From contig NC_014962.1 in NCBI RefSeq assembly GCF_000186345.1, positions 2,818,450 through 2,882,449 of the forward strand: a stretch of 64,000 nucleotides of DNA, given 5' to 3'. The notes under the pieces are model-generated. The model made no database searches, had not been told where the DNA came from, and worked only from the letters and a program-made list of their open reading frames with translations. Below, in pieces: positions 38,103 to 39,720 of this stretch; positions within the stretch are counted from its first letter, which is position 1, and each line of letters opens with the position of its first letter. Origin of the DNA: Isosphaera pallida ATCC 43644. GTDB taxonomy: Bacteria > Planctomycetota > Planctomycetia > Isosphaerales > Isosphaeraceae. The translations under genes were made by a program, and so were the position numbers.

Positions 38103-39272
38103 TCACTCCTCCAACGGCTCTTCCGCCTCGCCATCGCCATCGCCACCGGAAATGAAGGCCCCGTTCTCCTTCATCCGCTTGGCGATCACCTTGGCGGCGA
38201 TCTCGTCAGCGAGTTCGGGATGCTCCTTGAGATAAAGTTTGGAGTTCTCCCGACCCTGGCCCAACCTCAGATCGCCGTAGCTGAACCACGAGCCGGTTTT
38301 TTCCACCAGCTTGTCGGCCAGCGCTAGGTCGAGCAAATCACCCTCGCGGCTGATCCCCTGGTTGAACATGATGTCGAACTCGCAGACCCGGAACGGCGGC
38401 GCGATCTTATTTTTGACGATCTTAACCTTGACCCGGTTGCCAGTCGCCTCGTCTCCCTCCTTCACCGAACCAATTCGCCGCACGTCGATCCGCAGCGAAC
38501 TGTAGAACTTCAACGCCCGGCCCCCCGGCGTGGTTTCCGGCGAGCCAAACATCACTCCAATCTTCTCGCGAATCTGATTAATGAAAATCAATACGCATTT
38601 AGAGCGCGAGATCGCCGGCGTCAACTTGCGCAACGCCTGACTCATCAACCGCGCTTGGACCCCCACGAAGCTGTCGCCGATCTCGCCCTCGATTTCCGAC
38701 TTGGGTACCAGAGCGGCCACCGAGTCCACCACGATGATGTCCACGGCGTTGGACATCACCAGCATCTCGGCGATCTGGAGCGCCTCCTCAGCGCAGCTAG
38801 GCTGACTGACCAGCAGCGACTCGATATTGACCCCCAGCTTCTTGCACCAGGAGGGATCCAGCGCGTGTTCGGCGTCGATGAAGGCCGCCACCCCGCCCAG
38901 CTTTTGGGCGTTGGAGACCGCCTGCAGCGCAATCGTGGTCTTTCCGCTCGATTCTGGTCCGAACAACTCCACAATCCGGCCCCGTGGGAACCCTTTGCCT
39001 CCTAACGCCAAATCCAGCGACAGCGCCCCCGAGGAAATCCCCTCCACCTCCAGATGGGAATTTTCCCCCATCTTCATAATCGCCCCGGCCCCAAACGCCT
39101 TCTCGATCTGGCTGATCGCGTTGAGCAACGCCTTGTCCTCGGCGCTGGAGGCCGTCGCGCCACCACCCGATCCCTTGGATTCGCCCGACTTCGGCTTGGC
39201 CACCTCGACCACCTCCCCCGTCTGGATGTCCTCGTTGTCCACCGACCTGGATCGCGACACCACGGCCACCAC
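38103..39272 (-). CDS. recA: RecA recombinase
   Basis: DNA strand-exchange ATPase and SOS co-protease. Walker A GPESSGKT, the [17 protein letters not shown] Walker B region and [23 protein letters not shown] (L2) are all present, plus a C-terminal acidic tail ([14 protein letters not shown]). The N-terminus has an extra ~40-residue Gly/Ser/Lys-rich extension before the helix [18 protein letters not shown]. The 389-aa form starts at GTG 39272 (GGGGAGG six bases upstream). A TTG at 39326 also exists but lies only about ten bases after the expected transcript start, so it is unlikely. A promoter and a 22-bp near-palindrome lie just upstream. Confidence 0.95.
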
Positions 39273-39318
39273 GCCAAACCTCCCCCCCACCTCAGGACGC
39301 TCAATCTGTTGGAGTTGT

Positions 39319-39340
39319 GAACGCAAGTGTACTTCCGTTC
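39319..39340 (-). promoter_or_regulatory. Near-perfect 22-bp palindrome at the recA promoter (operator candidate)
   Basis: On the minus strand GAACGGAAGT-AC-ACTTGCGTTC: two 10-base arms that match at nine of ten positions around a two-base spacer. It starts two bases past the -10 hexamer and covers the likely transcription start. A LexA-type repressor bound here would block recA. The spacing and core differ from the classic Bacillus box and I do not know a planctomycete consensus. Confidence 0.65.
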
Positions 39341-39342
39341 AA

Positions 39343-39370
39343 AATCTACTCCGCCGCCGGTTTCTGTCAA
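39343..39370 (-). promoter_or_regulatory. Sigma-70 type promoter of recA
   Basis: Reverse strand: -35 TTGACA (39365-39370), 16-base spacer, -10 TAGATT (39343-39348, four of six consensus positions). Transcription would start near 39336, leaving a 60-odd-base leader to GTG 39272. Confidence 0.7.
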
Positions 39371-39720
39371 GTCCCGACCGACGGGAATGGTTCATGTGGT
39401 TCGCCGCCGGGAGGCCCCGAGCGCTTGGGTCGGGGCTGTGGAGCGTGGCGCATCGAAGGGATTGCCCCTGATCCGCGTCGAACCTTAAGGGGAGGTTGGG
39501 CGTGAATCGGAACGATTGTATCATGGAAGGGCGTCGTCGGGATGGGGTTTGAGGCGGGTTGTCCGATCGTCTTGGGTTAGCGATCCCCCGGCGATTGGAG
39601 CCGCTCCTTTTGAAAGCCGGCGCGATGGTCAACCCAACGCGATGGAACCCCGCCAAACGTAAGATAACTCAGCGCGACGCGACACGACGCGACGAGATGG
39701 GAGAAGGAGGGCCGAGGACG
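39371..39720. other. Remainder of divergent spacer between recA and coiled-coil gene
   Basis: 350 bases beyond the recA promoter, up to ATG 39721. It should contain the promoter of the plus-strand coiled-coil protein, which I could not define. No gene is supported. Confidence 0.4.

Follow-up and report, generated by a model that had tools for sequence, protein, structure and literature searches.

The LexA box of the Verrucomicrobia is reportedly a 14-bp element, TGTTC-N4-GAACA, found at the recA promoter of Verrucomicrobium spinosum. Of the known boxes it is the closest in kind to the element described here, with which it shares a 14-bp palindromic unit, a 4-bp spacer, TG..C/G..CA half-sites, and the placement at the recA promoter. 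The box of Bacillus and other Gram-positive bacteria (LexA, or DinR), CGAACRNRYGTTYG (GAAC-N4-GTTC), is likewise short and palindromic, with GAAC/GTTC letters on either side of a 4-bp spacer, but its half-sites are inverted with respect to the planctomycete motif. The E. coli box, CTGT-N8-ACAG, also provides a recA operator at the promoter, and the cyanobacterial box, RGTACNNNDGTWCB, has GTAC/GTWC half-sites. For the planctomycetes, the literature searched gave only the statement that their LexA does not recognize the E. coli box (2011 paper, PMC3108266); no paper that sets out a LexA motif for planctomycetes turned up there, an absence that proves little, most subscription papers lying outside the coverage.

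Here we analyzed the recA locus in a 64-kb stretch of the Isosphaera pallida genome (64,000 nucleotides; hereafter designated the window). The analysis leads to a sequence-based definition of a putative SOS operator, TGTHC-N4-GTACA for the Isosphaeraceae and, more loosely, TGWWC-N4-GWWCA for the planctomycete class, which links it to the Verrucomicrobia box and names recA, lexA, dinB, and possibly a ComEA-like gene as candidate targets.

The recA promoter and a 14-bp unit within the palindrome

The recA gene (TIGR02012, 518 bits) occupies 38103–39272 on the minus strand, its likely start codon being the GTG at 39272, preceded by the ribosome-binding site GGGGGAGG. Its promoter, of the sigma-70 type, consists of the −35 hexamer TTGACA (39370–39365), a 16-nt spacer, and the −10 hexamer TAGATT (39348–39343) followed by two T residues, and it is the sole promoter-like site in 39250–39600 (one versus 0.1 in shuffled sequences). 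Directly past the two T residues lies the 22-bp near-palindrome GAACGGAAGT-AC-ACTTGCGTTC (39340–39319, minus strand), with arms matching in nine of ten positions and extendable by one further pair to TGAAC...GTTCA (39341–39318). The promoter and palindrome noted at 39319–39370 in the initial annotation are thereby confirmed on the minus strand. Judged as a palindrome only, the element is neither exceptional nor rare, the window containing five pairs of 10-bp arms that match in at least nine of ten positions with a spacer of 2 and 39 such pairs with spacers of 0–8; it stands out by its location and its motif content. When the described boxes were compared with the recA leader, the best match to the Bacillus box had four mismatches, that to the E. 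coli box missed three of the eight fixed bases, and the cyanobacterial box had three mismatches; the fit of the Bacillus and E. coli boxes is thus poor.

The conserved core within the palindrome is a 14-bp unit, TGAAC-GGAA-GTACA, running from 39341 to 39328 on the minus strand (TGTAC-TTCC-GTTCA on the plus strand) and hereafter designated site A, the predicted main LexA-type operator over the expected transcription start. A matrix built from relatives' recA leaders only, used in their orientation, found its best match in the window at site A (14.7 bits; plus-strand AAGTGTACTTCCGTTCAA), and ranks 1, 2, and 4 of the 127,966 window positions scored on both strands fell on the palindrome. With a strand-symmetric matrix, site A scored 13.8 and the next-best position of the window 9.6. 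The center of site A lies at 39334/39335, and that of the full palindrome at the AC dinucleotide (39329/39330). The 22-bp palindrome as first delimited is not itself the operator unit; the unit has 14 bp (39328–39341), and the rest belongs to a weaker, mirrored second copy 10 bp away.

Conservation in recA leaders of relatives

The recA loci of the family (Isosphaeraceae) and of the class were retrieved, and their leaders were compared. An expectation-maximization (EM) motif search of 29 family recA leaders, from which the present sequence was left out, yielded TAGTGTTCTTGCGTACAG, that is, TGTNC-N4-GTACA (about TGTHC-N4-GTACA), immediately downstream of the −10 box. TTGAC is likewise placed in the recA leaders of nearly all relatives, and a TAGATT/TATATT-type box directly precedes the motif. 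The offset of the motif from TTGAC is 29 here versus 31–33 in nearly all relatives, so that site A is the positional homologue of their site; an operator-like site overlaps the recA promoter at a conserved position. Conservation of the palindrome in relatives' recA leaders, raised as a check in the initial annotation, accordingly holds for the inner 14-mer and fails for the outer left arm, which is absent from these leaders.

Site A departs from TGTHC-N4-GTACA by one mismatch, its left half containing AA where the relatives have TT, TC, or AT, and it lies one or two changes from the consensus depending on the strand read. Compared with the Verrucomicrobia box, site A differs in three of the ten fixed bases and the Isosphaeraceae consensus favors GTACA as its right half, whereas class members match better, some of their sites (TGTTC-ATTT-GAACA in L150 and TGTTC-GGCC-GAACA in L160) being exact. 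The strict pattern ASTGWYC-N4-GTACA occurred eight times in six relatives, four times at recA and four times not at recognizable SOS genes.

As a separate observation, the recA promoter of many relatives (L006–L020) directly follows the end of an ORF, which by eye we take to be a 2'-5' RNA ligase gene; the window has no such neighbor upstream of its recA.

LexA and motif matches at other SOS genes

Candidate targets were chosen by inspecting known SOS genes rather than by an unbiased regulon scan, and enrichment of the recA-trained symmetric motif was tested against 300 dinucleotide shuffles per leader set. None of the 300 shuffles reached the observed value in any of four sets, namely dinB leaders of the family (z 8.3), lexA leaders of the family (z 3.1, a modest enrichment), recA leaders of the class outside the family (z 7.7), and lexA leaders of the class (z 7.4). 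The same motif is thus found upstream of other SOS genes, strongly at dinB, where in the family it often lies between −35 and −10, and more weakly at lexA. In the genome itself, whose two contigs total 5,529,304 bases (5,472,964 of them in the larger one), the sole Y-family (dinB-type) polymerase gene has a match, CTAAACTTTCGTTCAG (11.4 bits), overlapping the probable −10 box, and the lexA leader has a weaker one, GTGATCGCACGTTCGG (7.0 bits).

Simple patterns were also counted on the genome scale and were set aside. TGTWC-N4-GTWCA was no commoner than its reversed control (6 versus 15), the sites of note being those at recA and at the ComEA-like gene. GTRHWC-N4-GTTCR (38 versus 25 in the control) fell mostly in coding sequence and was uninformative beyond recA and lexA, and ACTTNCGTTCA (9 versus 5) coincided with SOS-gene promoters only at recA (twice) and dinB.

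The ComEA-like gene, a helix-hairpin-helix gene (L254:1596–2339), has in its leader one of these six TGTWC-N4-GTWCA sites, TTGTACTTTTGAACAG (14.8 bits; L254:1501–1514, G000:C2:371125–371138). It may tentatively be considered an SOS target, and only tentatively, because among the relatives upstream sites were seen in G002, G021, and G019 only, where they score 11–14 bits, weaker than its own. Separately, the family lexA leaders (L035–L064) contain a conserved block of about 45 bp, AAAATGTTCTCGCGTGCGCTAGACGACCTGTGTACATTAGC, roughly 60–400 bases before the lexA start (here ATTGTTCTACCGTGCGCTAGGCCACCAGTGTACATTAGC), conserved far beyond the need of a LexA site alone.

The genome encodes one LexA (TIGR00498, 202 bits) and a single S24 peptidase domain; the LexA protein, P0001, contains the helix-turn-helix together with the S24 peptidase, and the Ala-Gly, Ser, and Lys motifs are visible. 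Its recognition helix region, IKSPNGVMCHLKALQKKGLI, is identical in almost every family member, the exceptions being one K-to-A and one K-to-R change in one member each. Since this helix is nearly invariant and the motif occurs at SOS genes of the family and class, the predicted operator is of a family- and class-wide planctomycete type, close to TGTTC-N4-GAACA, and is not strain-specific. The notion of a lineage-specific LexA site therefore gives way to a TGTHC-N4-GTACA-type box present across family and class and paired with the recognition helix of the family.

Inverted repeats at transcript starts can also work otherwise, as the site of another regulator or as an RNA hairpin with which the recA transcript would begin, in which case the likeness to a LexA motif would be accidental. 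We regard this as very improbable, given that the relatives keep the 14-bp motif and not the palindrome arms and that the motif recurs at dinB and lexA at differing positions relative to the promoter. The element at recA is very probably the LexA operator of this gene; LexA/SOS control of recA, as the initial annotation proposed from its placement over +1, is well supported by the position and conservation of the site, the motif at dinB and lexA, and the single LexA having the family helix.

By analogy with established LexA knowledge, binding, repression, and induction would most likely proceed as follows. In undamaged cells, a LexA dimer would occupy the 14-bp site A, one base past the −10 box, covering the expected transcription start and blocking initiation at recA. 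Upon DNA damage, RecA filaments would promote the self-cleavage of LexA, and recA would be derepressed.

The overlapping second copy

The second copy, site B (TACAC-TTGC-GTTCA, 39318–39331, minus strand), is predicted to be a weaker, mirrored operator-like site offset from site A by exactly 10 bp and sharing its TACA half. It scored 11.2 with the oriented matrix, the second-best value in the window, and 7.9 with the symmetric one. The 22–24-bp palindromic appearance arises because site B overlaps site A 10 bp downstream, the 22-bp near-palindrome (39319–39340) being made up of the outer halves of the two sites plus their shared middle.

It could be supposed instead that the whole 22–24-bp palindrome is one lineage-specific LexA operator with outer TGAAC...GTTCA arms 14 bp apart. 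The extended arms match in 10 of 11 positions, their spacing exceeds that of TGWWC-N4-GWWCA by exactly one helical turn, and GTTC forms the right half of the recA, dinB, and lexA sites alike in this genome, whereas GTAC prevails there in the relatives. Against such a single wide operator, the 22-mer has a single occurrence in the whole genome, even with up to three mismatches allowed, so that no further copies were detected near SOS genes; no second motif match at +10 was present in any of the relatives' recA leaders scored; the recognition helix of LexA is that of the family; and the conservation is accounted for by the inner 14-mer on its own. This reading thus appears improbable. Of the second copy near other SOS genes for which the initial annotation called, the inner 14-mer has counterparts, at dinB and lexA, and the full 22-mer has none.

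Within the preferred reading, that of site A as a LexA operator of the family type, the overlapping double copy is, with the relatives' sequences as comparison, the only feature peculiar to this genome. Site B lies on the same helix face as site A, and it would probably offer an alternative register for one LexA dimer rather than a place for a second, because two sites that share a half-site can hardly both be filled. A more elaborate version, in which three half-sites form overlapping 14-bp sites one helical turn apart and the two dimer registers tune recA repression unlike that of relatives, is conceivable but rather unlikely. We give a slightly less than even chance to site B being a chance or neutral sequence, with site A alone functional and the palindrome a by-product of a short indel. 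Random sequence of equal composition reaches a score of 7.9 roughly once every 3 kb, one site suffices in the relatives, and palindromes of equal quality are common in the window; on the other hand, site B lies exactly one turn from site A and has 14 identical bases (ACTTGCGTTCACAA) in common with the only site of G002, a distant relative (L032, GTGCACTTGCGTTCACAA). On account of this resemblance, the present arrangement may stem from a small indel that fell between the −10 box and an older site.

Two LexA-like sites also occur in the recA leaders of genus g6 (L021, L022, and L304), where GTGTTAATGTGTTCAT and ATGTTCACCAGTTCAC are well separated, 26 bp apart, an arrangement that differs from the overlap of sites A and B.
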